Notes under the pieces: model-generated
The model's input: only the letters and a program-made list of their open reading frames with translations
Told to the model about the DNA's origin: nothing
Database searches by the model: none
From: Desulfovibrio sp.
Lineage (GTDB): Bacteria; Desulfobacterota; Desulfovibrionia; Desulfovibrionales; Desulfovibrionaceae
Direction: 5' to 3'
NCBI GenBank assembly: GCA_016208105.1
Contig: JACQYS010000023.1
Location: 62,001 to 126,000 of the forward strand
Length of the DNA stretch: 64,000 nucleotides
Position numbers and translations under genes: made by a program
Part shown: positions 2,546-44,325 of the stretch, in pieces
Position numbering within the stretch: the stretch's first letter is position 1
Layout of the letters: each line of letters begins with the position of its first letter

Positions 2546-2638
2546 TGGCGGAAGCGTATAGGGGTCGAACCTACCGAAGGGGATGAGCCTTCCACTGGAT
2601 TTGAAGTCCAGGCGCCACACCGGTGACGATACGCTTCC
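2546..2638 (-). tRNA. selC: tRNA-Sec (anticodon UCA)
   Basis: The minus strand folds into a selenocysteine tRNA. The acceptor stem has 8 bp (GGAAGCGT with ACGCTTCC). A 6-bp D stem (CGTCAC/GTGGCG) closes a tiny CGGT loop. The anticodon arm is CTGGA-CTTCAAA-TCCAG with UCA encoded at 2604-2602. There is a long variable arm with a GAAGG/CCTTC stem, a T loop TTCGACC and an encoded GCCA 3' end. The 8-bp acceptor, 6-bp D stem and UCA anticodon are diagnostic of bacterial tRNA-Sec. The genome is therefore expected to encode selenoproteins, although no in-frame Sec TGA was recognised in this window. Confidence 0.96.
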
Positions 2639-7363: not shown

Positions 7364-8716
7364 ATGCATAATCGCCTTTTCGGTACTGATGGACTGCGCG
7401 GGCAGGTGAATATTTATCCCATGACCCCTGAAGTGGCCCTGAAGCTGGGCCTGGCCGCCGGTGCGCACTTCCGCAACGGCAAGGGCCGGCACAAGGTGGT
7501 CATCGGCAAGGATACGAGGCTTTCCGGCTACATATTCGAGTATGCCCTGGCTTCGGGGTTCTGCGCTTCGGGCATGGACGTCTTCCTGGTCGGGCCGCTG
7601 CCCACCCCGGCCATCGCCTTTCTCACCCGCTCCATGCGCGCCGACGTTGGCGTTGTCATCTCGGCCTCGCACAATCCGTACATGGACAACGGCATCAAGT
7701 TTTTCGACCGCAACGGCTTCAAGCTCCCGGACGAAACCGAGGACCAGATCTCGGCCATGGTTTTAAACCCCAAGCCCGAGTGGGAATTCCCGGCCCCGGA
7801 AGCCGTGGGCCGTGCTTTCAAGATTCAGGACAGCCCGGGCCGCTACAACGTCTATTTAAAATCCACCATCCGCTCCGAACTCCCCTTCGAAGACCTCAAG
7901 ATCGTCATGGACTGCGCCAACGGCGCGGCCTACCGCGTCTCGCCGCTGGTGTTCGAGGAGCTCGGGGCCAAGGTGATAAAGCTTGGCGTGGAACCGGACG
8001 GCACCAACATCAACCGCAAGGTGGGCTCGCTCTACCCCGAGGTGACGGCCCAGATGGTGCGCGAGACCGGCGCGGACATCGGCATCGCCCTGGACGGTGA
8101 CGCGGACCGGGTGATCGTGGTGGACGAGAAGGGCAACGTGCTCGACGGCGACCAGATCATGGCCATCTGCGCCCAGGATATGCTGGAGAAGGACAAGCTC
8201 TCGAACAATCTTCTGGTGGCCACGGTGATGAGCAACATGGCCCTTGAAGTCTTCATGAACGAGCGTGGCGGCAGGCTCTTGCGCACTCCCGTGGGCGACC
8301 GCTACGTGTTCGAGGCCATGCGGCGTGAGGGCGCCGTGCTCGGCGGCGAACAGTCCGGGCACATCATCTTCAAACGCCACGCCACCACCGGAGACGGCAC
8401 CCTGGCCGCGTTGCAGCTTATCCGCATCATGCTGGAGCGGGGCAAGCCCCTATCGGAGCTGGCCACCCTTCTCGAGCCCTATCCGCAGATTCTGATAAAC
8501 GTCCACGTGGAGCGCAAGATTCCCTTCGAGAACGCCCCAAAGGTCATGGAGGCCGTGAAGGACGCCGAAGCGACCCTGTGCGGCAAGGGAAGGGTGCTTC
8601 TTCGCTATTCCGGAACGGAATCCGTGGCGCGCATCATGGTGGAGGGCTGCGACACCGGCCAGGTCAAGGAATTGGCCGAATCTCTCGCGGTTACCTTGAA
8701 GGAGCACCTGCGCTAG
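7364..8716 (+). CDS. glmM: phosphoglucosamine mutase
   Basis: GlmM interconverts glucosamine-6-phosphate and glucosamine-1-phosphate for UDP-GlcNAc, feeding peptidoglycan and LPS. The 450-residue product starts [13 protein letters not shown]. It carries the phosphoserine loop VVISASHNP (catalytic Ser102), the magnesium loop DGDADR, the sugar loop GGEQSGH and the phosphate-binding RYSGTE near the C-terminus. A ribosome site (AGGGAGAAG) lies just upstream and only 12 bases separate it from cdaR. It is the last gene of the block; a 146-bp repeat begins two bases after its stop. Confidence 0.95.
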
Positions 8717-8718
8717 GC

Positions 8719-8864
8719 GCCTGTTGAAAAAATCCCGCTGGCTGCGTTGCCGCGCAAAAGTCAAACCTTCGCGTATGTCAAATACGCTTCAGCCTTGACT
8801 TTTTTCCGCGCCTTGCCATCTGGTTTTTTGAGCAGGCTCAAGAATATCGGATTTTTCAACGGGC
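8719..8864 (+). repeat. dispersed about 146-bp repeat with terminal inverted repeats, copy 1
   Basis: The element starts GCCTGTTGAAAAAATCC and ends with GGATTTTTCAACGGGC, which is nearly its reverse complement. Inside is a palindrome GCGTATGTCAAATACGC. A second copy lies at 41831-41975 in the opposite orientation, with about 90 percent identity over the 120-bp core by eye. No coding frame is present. It resembles a MITE-like non-autonomous element, or a mobile terminator. It follows the glmM stop by two bases. Confidence 0.8.
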
Positions 8865-10003: not shown

Positions 10004-10029
10004 GGTCGTTAAGATCGCCCAGGATTACG

Positions 10030-10205
10030 CAGGGCTCCGCCCTGCACCCGCCAGGGGGATGATCCCCCTGGACCCTCTATTGCTTCGCGGCTTTCACCGG
10101 GAACCGGTGAAAGCCGCGAAGCAATAGGGGATTCCAAAGGAACTTCGTTCCTTTGGCGGGAGAGTCCAGAGAGGGCGGAGCCCTCGCTGGCCGCCGGAGG
10201 CTTCA
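10030..10205 (+). repeat. multi-hairpin dispersed repeat, copy A
   Basis: Four hairpins in a row: CAGGGC-TCC-GCCCTG at 10030-10044; CCAGGGGGA-TGA-TCCCCCTGG at 10051-10071; a perfect 24-bp stem with a GAA loop at 10077-10127; and CCAAAGGAAC-TTC-GTTCCTTTGG at 10134-10156. The related copy at 44156-44325 shares the first three hairpins and the ending GCCGCCGGAGGC. It has no coding value. Such arrays are common in intergenic DNA of this family and may be RNA-stabilising or REP/BIME-like elements (inference). Confidence 0.8.
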
Positions 10206-13838: not shown

Positions 13839-15293
13839 CTAGAACTTGTATTGCAGGCCGAACGCCACTTTCCAGGCGTCGCCGTTCTGGGACTGATTGA
13901 CCAGCCTGTGCCCCCAGACGCTCGACTGGAATGATCCGTGGGCCCAGCCGCTTTCCACGATGGCGGCCAGGTTCTCGTAGATGTTGTACTGGTTGTCGAA
14001 GTTGACGCCCACCACATACTCATCCGTTGTCAGGTCGCGGCCCATCTGCACGTAGTTGCCGGTGCCCCAGATGGCGTTGGCATAGCGCAGGGCGCGGGCG
14101 CTGTTGGTTCCCCGGGCGTAGCTCAGGGTCAGGCGGTGGGTGAGGTCCTGCATGAACGAGATCTTGTTCAGCGAGAACGCAGCGCCCATGGAGCCGATGG
14201 GGTTCAAGCCCATGTGTCCGCCGGCGAAGGCCTGGCTGGAGTCGAACAAAAACGAAGTGGAGGGTCCCCAGGAACCGACGATGGTGGGCATGCGCTCGGA
14301 ACCGTTGCTGGTGGAGTTGTCCTCGCCGGTGGAATACCAGAAGGTCAGCTGGGGGGTCAGCATGTCGAAGCCGGTATATTCGGCGGCCACGTCGAAGAAC
14401 AGGCCGGAGCGGCTTTTCCTGCCCTGATCGGTGGCGCCTGCGCCATAGATCACGTCCGCATAGAACTTGAACGGGTCAAGCGCGGTGACGGCAAAGGACG
14501 AGCCGGCCCACCAGTAGACGGTCTGGGCCTGGCTGAAGCCGGTGTTCGTCCCGGTCATGTAGCCTGCGGAAGCCAGGTTGGTGGCCAGGGACTGGTTGGT
14601 GTAGCGCGGGGATGAACCCACGGCGGTGGTGTAGGTGGCGTCCTTGCCGGCTACGGCCAGCATGCCCCACGGGGTGGCAGAGAAACCGTCCAGGGTGATG
14701 GGCAGCACCAGGAAGTAGGCGTCGAGCTCGTCGGCCTTCTGGGTCGTGGTGGTGTCGAAGTCCTTGTTGGAGTCGAGCAGGCGGGCGAATCCGGCCATGA
14801 TCTTGAACTGGTCCACCACGGGGATGGACACCACGGCCGCGGCGGCGCGGGTGCCGCCGAACACGGGGTTGGCGTTCAGCAAGGCCGGGGAGGAGATGGG
14901 CAGGTCCATGTCCTGCAGGCCGATGGTGAACTCTACGTCTGTGCTGGGCCATTTGAACTGCAGGAAGGCCTGGTACACGTCGATGGACACGGCCGGGTTG
15001 TCCACGGTGAAGGTGTCGTTGCCCCAGGCCTTGTTGTTCACGCGGATGCCCAAGCGGAACTTCAGGTTCTCGTTGGTGATGAAGTCCGAACGCAGGCGGA
15101 AGCGTTCCCAGATGGTCAGGGAGTCCCCGGTGTTGGTGCCCTTGGCGTTCCAGCCCGTATAGTTGGTGTTGTTCCAGAAATTCGCATGGATGCGTGCGTC
15201 GCCGGTCATCTTGACCTCGGTAGCGGCAGCGGCCAGGGCCGCGAAGCCGAACACCATGGCGGCGAACAGTGCCAGGCAGGTTAAACGCTTCAT
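13839..15293 (-). CDS. outer-membrane trimeric porin, complete
   Basis: A 484-residue beta-barrel porin. The N-terminus MKRLTCLALFAAMVFGF is a Sec signal peptide ending at ALAAAA before TEVKMTGDARIHANF. The body has alternating aromatic strands and ends VAFGLQYKF. ATG 15293 is chosen because AAGGAG lies 8 bases before it; the ATG six bases upstream is too close. It is paralogous to the porin cut by the left edge. The leader contains an imperfect stem (15337-15372, GGGAC/GTCCC enclosing TCCAT-TGAA-ATGGA). Abundant porins of sulfate reducers belong to this family (knowledge). Confidence 0.93.
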   Translation of the reverse strand: MKRLTCLALFAAMVFGFAALAAAATEVKMTGDARIHANFWNNTNYTGWNAKGTNTGDSLTIWERFRLRSDFITNENLKFRLGIRVNNKAWGNDTFTVDNPAVSIDVYQAFLQFKWPSTDVEFTIGLQDMDLPISSPALLNANPVFGGTRAAAAVVSIPVVDQFKIMAGFARLLDSNKDFDTTTTQKADELDAYFLVLPITLDGFSATPWGMLAVAGKDATYTTAVGSSPRYTNQSLATNLASAGYMTGTNTGFSQAQTVYWWAGSSFAVTALDPFKFYADVIYGAGATDQGRKSRSGLFFDVAAEYTGFDMLTPQLTFWYSTGEDNSTSNGSERMPTIVGSWGPSTSFLFDSSQAFAGGHMGLNPIGSMGAAFSLNKISFMQDLTHRLTLSYARGTNSARALRYANAIWGTGNYVQMGRDLTTDEYVVGVNFDNQYNIYENLAAIVESGWAHGSFQSSVWGHRLVNQSQNGDAWKVAFGLQYKF

Positions 15294-27622: not shown

Positions 27623-27973
27623 ATGAGCGACGAAATAGAAATTCTCGACAAAGCGTTGCGGTCTGGCCGCCAGGAGCTGCAGCAGCTCGTTGATGGCGAA
27701 GTGGAGGGGGCGGAGCAACTGGCCCAGGAGCGTCTTGCCCTTATGGACGAGGCGTGGCGCATGCGCGACCCGTTGAAGATCGGCGTGCTCAAGGAGAAAC
27801 TCCTGCAGCTGCAAAGTCTTCAAGGGCAGATAACGGCTGAAGCGCGCCGCTTGCACGAGGCCATCCGACGCGACCTCTTGAGAGCCAGGCAGGAGAACCA
27901 GCGCCTGACGGGGTATCGTTCGTCGCTTCGAGTCTCTCCTCATGGCGCACGATTCGTGGACAGGGCCGGTTGA
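27623..27973 (+). CDS. small helical protein, possible FlgN/FliT-like flagellar chaperone
   Basis: A 116-residue protein consisting almost entirely of amphipathic helix: LDKALRSGRQELQQLVDGE, then LKEKLLQLQSLQGQITAEA, then RARQENQRLTGYRSSLR. Length and helical pattern, with an Asn near the second-helix end, resemble the FlgN/FliT export chaperones, which hold flagellar hook or filament proteins. The similarity is to a general pattern, not a diagnostic motif. It lies 15 bases after the previous gene and is followed by a hairpin terminator. Confidence 0.6.
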   Translation: MSDEIEILDKALRSGRQELQQLVDGEVEGAEQLAQERLALMDEAWRMRDPLKIGVLKEKLLQLQSLQGQITAEARRLHEAIRRDLLRARQENQRLTGYRSSLRVSPHGARFVDRAG

Positions 27974-27977
27974 TATT

Positions 27978-28015
27978 ACCGGGAGCAGAAAGTTTTAACT
28001 TTCGTGCTCTCCGGT
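27978..28015 (+). terminator. hairpin after the glycosyltransferase/chaperone-like genes
   Basis: ACCGGGAGCAGAAAG pairs with CTTTCGTGCTCTCCGGT around a TTTTAA loop, with single-base bulges. There is no T run after it, so it may be an mRNA 3' stabiliser or part of the structured element that follows. Confidence 0.5.
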
Positions 28016-28099
28016 TATAAGTGCCAGCCGCCGCAGGCGGCGACAGCGGCGGCCGCCGCTCGGAGCAAAATGCAGTTACATTTTGCACCTGGCAATAAC
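28014..28099 (+). ncRNA. cloverleaf-like structured intergenic element of unknown role
   Basis: A closing stem, GTTAT/ATAAC plus TGCCAG/CTGGCA with an AAG bulge (28014-28027 and 28089-28099), encloses three hairpins: CGCCG-CAGG-CGGCG (28029-28042), AGCGGCGGCCGCCGCT (28045-28060) and GCAAAATG-CAGTTA-CATTTTGC (28065-28086). It is not a tRNA (no anticodon or T loop) and does not match integron attC ends. It may be an RNA element or a palindromic mobile repeat. Transcription is unproven. Confidence 0.45.
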
Positions 28100-28105
28100 G
28101 GTCTT

Positions 28106-28138
28106 GAAGGCCGGGCGAAAGCCCGGCCTTCTGATTTT
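28106..28138 (+). terminator. Rho-independent terminator
   Basis: AAGGCCGGGC-GAAA-GCCCGGCCTT followed by CTGATTTT. It is a ten-bp stem with a stable GAAA loop and closes the transcript from 25350-27973 or the structured element before it. Confidence 0.85.
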
Positions 28139-41830: not shown

Positions 41831-41975
41831 GTCCGTTGCAAAAGTCTATTTCCGCAGCCTGTTCAAAAATACTGCTGGCAAGGCGCGGGAAAAAGTTAAG
41901 GCTGAAGCGTATTTGACATACGCGAAGGTTTGACTTTTGAGCGGCAACGCCGCCAGCGGGAGTTTTTCAACAGGC
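41831..41975 (-). repeat. dispersed about 146-bp repeat, copy 2 (inverted relative to copy 1)
   Basis: The reverse complement matches copy 1 at 8719-8864 over its whole length. The outer ends are GTCCGTTGCAAAAG on the plus-strand left and CTTTTTCAACAGGC-like on the right, and the palindromic core is GCGTATTTGACATACGC. It begins 13 bases after the lactate dehydrogenase stop. The word CTAAC occurs next to both ends (41825 and 41978), possibly a target duplication. Confidence 0.78.
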
Positions 41976-42009
41976 AGCTAACCCTGCTGCTCTCTTCGGG
42001 AATGCTATG

Positions 42010-44155: not shown

Positions 44156-44325
44156 GATCAAGGGCTCCGCCCTTGATCCGGCAGGGCGCTGCCCTGCACC
44201 CGCCAGGGGGATGATCCCCCTGGACCCTCAGTTGCTTCGCGGCATTCACCGGAAACCCGGTGAATACCGCGAAGCGATAGGGGATTCCAAGGGGCCATTG
44301 GCCATTTGGCCGCCGGAGGCATCCA
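44156..44325 (+). repeat. multi-hairpin dispersed repeat, copy B
   Basis: It contains GATCAAGGGC-TCC-GCCCTTGATC (44156-44178), GCAGGGC-GCT-GCCCTGC, CCAGGGGGA-TGA-TCCCCCTGG, and a long stem around TTCACCGG-AAA-CCCGGTGAAT with one mismatch. It shares the GCCAGGGGGATGATCCCCCT word, the stem arrangement and the ending GCCGCCGGAGGC with copy A at 10030. Confidence 0.8.

Follow-up and report, generated by a model that had tools for sequence, protein, structure and literature searches.

Gene context of the element

The window, the whole stretch of 64,000 nucleotides analysed here, carries a structured element directly 3′ of the TGA stop codon (27971–27973) of a 116-aa ORF and 5′ of an intrinsic terminator. 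The ORF is preceded by a 202-aa gene and followed by an iron-containing alcohol dehydrogenase, assigned as ErcA by NCBIfam, and this arrangement is conserved in six other genomes of the genus. No Pfam or NCBIfam family scores over its cut-off on the 202-aa gene. A FlgN-like label for the 116-aa ORF was dropped because no family search backs it. The features of the locus are listed in Table 1.

Table 1. Features of the element and its flanks, in window positions.
Feature	Position	Strand	Basis and remarks
Complete element, 124 bp, non-coding	27974–28097	+	TATTACCGGG...CTGGCAATA; ends placed by aligning 77 other copies with it
Hairpin 1, left terminal imperfect palindrome	27974–28019	+	Fold and compensatory changes
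Hairpin 2, GC-rich	28027–28041	+	Fold; both sides changed in 3 of 8 family pairs
Hairpin 3, GC-rich	28045–28060	+	Fold; 98.4% of cells paired in the family
Hairpin 4, right terminal	28062–28089	+	Fold; both sides changed in 7 of 12 family pairs
Left TA, presumed target duplication	27974–27975		By family pattern; unproved at the window site
Right TA, presumed target duplication	28096–28097		By family pattern; unproved at the window site
Conserved ORF, 116 aa	27623–27973	+	No hit above cut-off in Pfam or NCBIfam
Intrinsic terminator of the upstream genes	28106–28131	+	Terminator scan; parted from the stop codon by the element

In all six of these genomes, a GC-rich, terminator-type inverted repeat follows the stop codon within about 80 bases, as judged by eye. 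Nothing resembling the element was seen by eye at the syntenic site in any of the six, and a covariance model of the element found no match anywhere in these genomes (G001–G006). When the element and one TA are removed, the window site aligns with two related loci (L018 and L019), leaving a one-base gap at the junction. The element is best read as a mobile insertion rather than as a locus-specific element. Positioned between stop codon and terminator, it most likely extends the upstream mRNA by a structured 3′ untranslated segment and is predicted not to end transcription.

Structure of the window copy

A sequence-only reading of the region had described a cloverleaf-like element at 28014–28099, closed by an 11-bp stem, and had judged its nested pairing too regular for chance. 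The judgement on chance is borne out. This 86-nt segment folds with −40.3 kcal/mol at a z-score of −3.85, and none of 200 shuffles was as good. The z-score is −6.91 for 176 nt around the segment, and −6.24 as RNA and −7.08 as DNA for the 124-nt unit of Table 1. The region is therefore structured beyond chance.

The bounds and the shape had to be redrawn. The element starts 40 bases further left than had been proposed, and its fold is a row of four hairpins instead of a cloverleaf. GTTAT (28014–28018), the left strand of the outer 5 bp of the supposed closing stem, pairs inside hairpin 1 when the wider region or the whole unit is folded; the outer stem is therefore not formed in these folds. 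Two bases of its partner ATAAC (28098–28099) fall outside the element. The inner part of the closing stem, TGCCAG/CTGGCA, is mostly formed in the window copy. A covariance model of the four hairpins (R2), built with the window copy included, recovers the element in the window at 81.7 bits (E 1.4e-16).

Two terminator-like hairpins had been said to flank the element. The right one passes the terminator scan, but the left one is the element's own hairpin 1. An intrinsic terminator consists of a hairpin followed by a T run, and in the scan only the hairpin at 28106–28131, outside the element, scores as one; a terminator reading of the element was therefore rejected.

The earlier view that the element is neither a tRNA, nor a known riboswitch, nor an attC site is sustained, for attC by eye. 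An Rfam scan of the whole window matched only a selenocysteine tRNA (tRNA-Sec, 2550–2638, minus strand, 79.4 bits). No Rfam family reaches its gathering score on the element, and therefore no known tRNA or riboswitch family matches it. The core sites of attC read RYYYAAC...GTTRRRY and lie within an integron; by eye, GTTATAA and CAATAAC do not fit this motif.

Distribution of the family

The element is present in a single copy in its own genome by both BLAST and the covariance model, and the family is therefore invisible to a repeat search of that genome alone. Further copies, which the sequence-only reading had suggested looking for, were found in other genomes. A first DNA search covered 348 genomes of the order Desulfovibrionales. 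It gave long alignments in four other genomes (G028, G011, G015, and G279); 66 of the 348 matched at E ≤ 0.01, the rest of them by short matches lying mostly in the GC-rich middle. A more focused search then yielded dozens of places. From these searches, 82 full-length copies with 40-base flanks were kept, after removal of three copies at locus edges, of copies below 70 bits or with low model coverage, and of duplicates. Their lengths are 122–130 bp in 81 copies and 108 in one. The 78 copies that were aligned come from G011 (37), G015 (34), G028 (3), G279 (3), and the window (1); L215, the 108-base copy in L174, and one copy each of L191 and L150 were left out.

Scanning the 348 genomes with model R2, with at most the ten best candidates scored per genome, gave matches at E ≤ 1e-3 in 13 genomes, including the window's own. 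They span 10 of 59 genera, and one genome (G036) belongs to another family of the order. The matches in three genomes (G207, G216, and G029) are weak, differ in appearance, and may be spurious. In two of them, G207 and G216, a similar-looking structured intergenic sequence (L255, L257, and L265) shares flanks that extend beyond the element (GTACGCTGTAAC...GCGGCGAAGCCGCC...), and is possibly a different conserved RNA or repeat.

Seventeen genomes were scanned in depth. G011 and G015 have 108 and 109 model matches, respectively. The numbers are 15 in G036, 13 in G095, 8 in G279, 6 in G032, 4 each in G028 and G097, and 1 each in G000 and G098, with none in G001–G006 and G096. Because the model can match both strands of one palindrome, some copies may be counted twice here; among the matches listed, distinct places number at least 59 in G011 and at least 64 in G015. 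An end motif of the element, TATTAMYGGGAGC, is likewise abundant with up to one mismatch in G011 (160 occurrences vs 9 for the reversed control) and G015 (125 vs 4), and shows no enrichment in G000 (8 vs 10) or G028 (11 vs 12).

In a phylum sample of 395 genomes, some of them of the same family, only the window's own genome matched; there, the best eight candidates per genome were scored under stricter filters. BLAST of the element against plasmids and phages returned nothing better than E 0.03. Among viral contigs, one pattern scan gave a single hit (L141), which has no model match at E ≤ 1e-3, a second gave 19 contigs with an end-like motif, none with a model match at E ≤ 0.01, and another gave zero hits.

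Copies lie among genes of all orientations. For 102 copies, a crude ORF call placed 21 and 14 in tandem contexts, 19 between convergent and 19 between divergent genes, 14 inside an ORF, and 15 at an edge; the call misread the window copy as divergent, and the counts serve qualitatively. The same call ends an ORF 6 bases inside the element in seven copies (L158, L143, L128, L154, L187, L240, and L201), and in these the upstream gene may take its stop codon from the end TATTAA. Solo single-hairpin forms of 45–48 bp with element-like ends also occur (L173 383–427, L181 470–517, and L175 777–823).

Conservation of the four hairpins

For the 78 aligned copies, the RNAalifold consensus contains hairpins 3 and 4 and part of hairpin 2, and leaves hairpin 1 unpaired. 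The four-hairpin structure used for the 78-copy test and for model R2 was then drawn by hand. With this structure, 94.3% of cells pair (shuffled 89.2%; slid at most 52.8%), 15 of 41 pairs are changed on both sides, and the covariation is 0.189 (shuffled 0.103, sd 0.004; slid at most 0.066). In a more diverse set of 20 copies from seven genera, aligned with MAFFT, both sides are altered in 22 of 42 pairs, with a covariation of 0.282 (shuffled 0.136, sd 0.009; slid at most 0.094). Both scores are somewhat favoured, because the structures were drawn from the same alignments and related copies can exceed shuffles.

Hairpin 1 takes part in these changes. At two of its base pairs, both partners are replaced in 36 and 28 of the 78 copies, respectively, and 11 of its 19 pairs change on both sides in the diverse set. 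Thus, the covariation that had been proposed as a check is found, for four tandem hairpins: they are conserved by compensatory change while their letters drift.

Neither of the two longer-range pairings shows such a pattern. The terminal inverted repeats (alignment columns 1–13 against 122–134) are complementary in 88.9% of cells over the 78 copies, and their end-to-end pairing has no covariation (0.064 vs 0.059). The closing stem of the cloverleaf was rejected as a family feature, since the stem tested, taken whole, is paired in 66.0% of cases against 66.2% when shuffled. Within TGCCAG/CTGGCA, two of six pairs are broken in 72 and 74 of the 76 copies that have bases at these positions, and a third is broken in 43 of 78.

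GU pairs exceed AC mispairs, 49 to 32, counted as pair-by-genome cases. At most, this excess hints weakly that one strand is under selection as RNA.

Insertion at TA and recent movement

Both ends carry TA in 75 of the 82 copies, in the form TA|TTAC...GTAA|TA. A shared duplication longer than TA does not rise above chance level. The flanks are AT-rich on both sides, with A or T in 73 of 82 copies at position −1, 62 at −3, 56 at +1, and 57 at +3, compared with, for example, 24 at −8 and 31 at +5 farther out. In L166, a copy overlaps its neighbour by exactly two bases, TA, and in L150 and L160, one TA is common to adjoining end motifs.

Empty sites were sought for 102 insertions among the fetched loci. 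Nine had a match spanning the junction and eight were usable; L162 was left out, as it matched only other element copies. At six of the sites, the element is inserted within another repeated sequence that also occurs without it. Here, 30 of 36 distinct related empty junctions read TA (L164 3 of 6, L195 4 of 6, L274 6 of 6, L276 8 of 8, L277 3 of 3, and L279 6 of 7). At the two other usable sites, the empty junction is TG (L145) or, for the window copy, T- in both relatives. Judged from these alignments, the TA target duplication holds for the family and is presumptive at the window site. Between G015 and G279, one of six sites is empty by length, and the orthologous intergenic regions are too diverged to place the TA.

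Four copies in G095 (L274, L276, L277, and L279) are 96–99% identical to one another, and their flanks are 56–86% identical. All four sit at one and the same TA of another host repeat, palindromic and diverged, and face the same way. Near-identical elements in diverged flanks indicate that the family has moved recently. The simplest reading is that these copies represent recent separate insertions at the same TA of the host repeat; gene conversion may instead have homogenised the elements.

The host sequence is itself a second dispersed palindromic repeat, GCAAGGCGC...GACGCGTATT..AATACGCGAGGGTTT..GCAACGC, which occurs in several genomes of the order and is a repeated target of the element. Besides the four G095 flanks, it was found in L278, L271, L136, L053, L080, and L083.

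A probable non-autonomous element and its putative transposase

With a probability of roughly 0.85, the element is one copy of a family of non-autonomous, TA-inserting MITEs with conserved structure in the Desulfovibrionales. It is shorter than 200 bp, holds no transposase gene, and has terminal inverted repeats, dispersed copies, and, at the level of the family, a TA target duplication. The reading rests on dispersal, absence from sister genomes, TA ends, mostly single-TA empty sites, recent movement, and compensatory change. We infer that mobilisation depends on a trans-acting protein transposase and that the shape of the hairpins plays a part in recognition or excision. Such an enzyme would recognise the matching ends (TTAC-YGGGAGC...GCTCCCR-GTAA) and the hairpins that hold them, and would insert the element at a TA dinucleotide, duplicating it. 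At the window locus, the element would have landed between the stop codon and the terminator. The TA duplication points to an enzyme that is Tc1/mariner-IS630-like or otherwise specific for TA.

The IS630-type domain DDE_3 (PF13358) was found in no gene of G000, G011, G015, G028, or G279; the same search was positive in 3 of 14 control genomes. The genomes richest in the element therefore lack the obvious TA-specific family. Nor was a longer parent element with the same ends found in 15 stretches of 6–11 kb around partial copies, where the possible parent ends proved to be partial or decayed copies. Nor did L168 show a parent element: a 1.4-kb stretch between two end motifs there holds a long, putatively heme-oxygenase-like ORF, which we take for a host gene.

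These results bear on the kind of enzyme that moves the family. A shape-recognising mover is a minority possibility: compensatory mutation would keep the four hairpins across genera while the letters drift, and the enzyme, inserting the element at TA, would belong neither to the IS630-type DDE nor to the Y1 HUH transposases. A more specific version, in which the enzyme reads hairpins of single-stranded DNA or RNA, is a little less probable and, on balance, unlikely. It would account for pairing that is conserved while stem letters change across genera, for end-to-end pairing without covariation, and for genomes with neither DDE_3 nor Y1_Tnp (G000, G015, G028, and G279). But the lack of two families is not the lack of all TA-specific DDE families, of which others exist (e.g., IS5/IS427), and the helper may simply have been lost. 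For the MITE family, the helper may belong to another TA-specific family, have been lost, or reside on a mobile carrier.

It is quite improbable that the family is of the REP/REPIN type and owes its spread to a RAYT (Y1 tyrosine HUH) transposase. A pair of inverted palindromes at the ends with a common GGGAGC, the solo palindromes of 45–48 bp in L173, L175, and L181, and hairpins conserved by compensation all resemble such elements. However, Y1_Tnp (PF01797) is absent from nine of ten genomes, namely G000, G015 with its many insertions, G028, G279, and five other genomes of the window's genus, and on this count RAYT was rejected as the general mover. Only G011 has the domain, in two genes, and the 1.9 and 3.3 kb around them contain only weak end-like motifs (at least 2–3 mismatches). 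The Y1 HUH mechanism is not known to produce a TA duplication. In addition, REP palindromes are flanked by a GTAG or CGTC tag (PMC3733652), whereas the present ends look TATTA/TAATA-like by eye.

A structured cis-acting RNA, riboswitch-like or a 3′-UTR regulator kept for a host function, is very improbable. It would explain the strong covariation and suit a window copy that lies within a likely transcribed 3′ UTR, and the GU excess described above leans weakly the same way. Against it stand copies in all gene orientations (by the crude ORF call), the same site without the element in six of six sister genomes, a patchy occurrence across genera, copies inside other repeats, and the lack of an Rfam match. 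A chance hairpin cluster at an operon end, to which the single copy in the genome might point, is refuted by the shuffle z-scores, the multi-genome family, and the covariation.

Comparison with known small elements

A 2007 review (PMC2229807) lists Correia/NEMIS, ERIC, RUP, RPE, CIR, YPAL, and RU-3. Such elements are described there as shorter than 200 bp, and most of them have inverted repeats and TA at their termini; those other than CIR fold with the 5′ end paired to the 3′ end, and CIR consists of two arms and a linker. ERIC (IRU, RU-1) of enterobacteria is likewise mobile and dispersed, is 127 bp long with terminal TA and a target duplication, and yields strongly base-paired transcripts (PMC2229807). 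It differs, in a comparison by description only, in its bacterial hosts and its end-to-end fold, whereas four hairpins covary here. CIR also has separate arms and a linker instead of one end-to-end stem, and a conserved structure, but its arms number two and carry GANTC motifs, against four hairpins in the present family (PMC2229807). RUP of pneumococcus is similar in being 107 bp long, non-autonomous, and targeted to TA; the helper proposed for it is IS630-Spn1 (PMC2229807), whereas no DDE_3 gene was found in five genomes here. REP/REPIN elements with RAYT share inverted terminal palindromes and solo forms with the present family, but the latter has a TA duplication and central hairpins, and its genomes mostly lack Y1_Tnp.

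No description of the family was found in open-access literature on Desulfovibrio MITEs, transposases, hairpins, or repetitive palindromes. The accessible text of a 2024 review (PMC10969869) contains no word starting with "desulfo". By size, ends, and dispersal, the family resembles known TA-duplicating small elements; it stands apart by its four separate arms, which compensatory mutations maintain.

The family adds a well-sampled MITE-like group in sulfate reducers, with at least 123 places in G011 and G015 and, apart from these two and the window's own genome, matches in as many as ten others. Compensatory changes among its divergent copies are evidence that a miniature element of bacteria is constrained to a specific multi-hairpin fold, and whether the transposases of such elements read sequence or shape becomes directly testable. 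The window copy also serves as a warning: a cluster of hairpins at the end of a gene can be an insertion even if the genome has it only once.

Other repeats in the window

The window contains further repeats. Dispersed blocks, 80–88% alike, lie at 10016–10157 and 44168–44310 and, inverted, at 8702–8838 and 41856–41992; none of them matches the model of the element. The former pair carries long palindromes such as GCTTCGCGGCTTTCACCGG. A long inverted repeat of about 75–79% identity links 320–892 with 13839–14411 (together with 1–104, 176–292, and 14436–14730), and possibly represents duplicated genes in opposite orientation.
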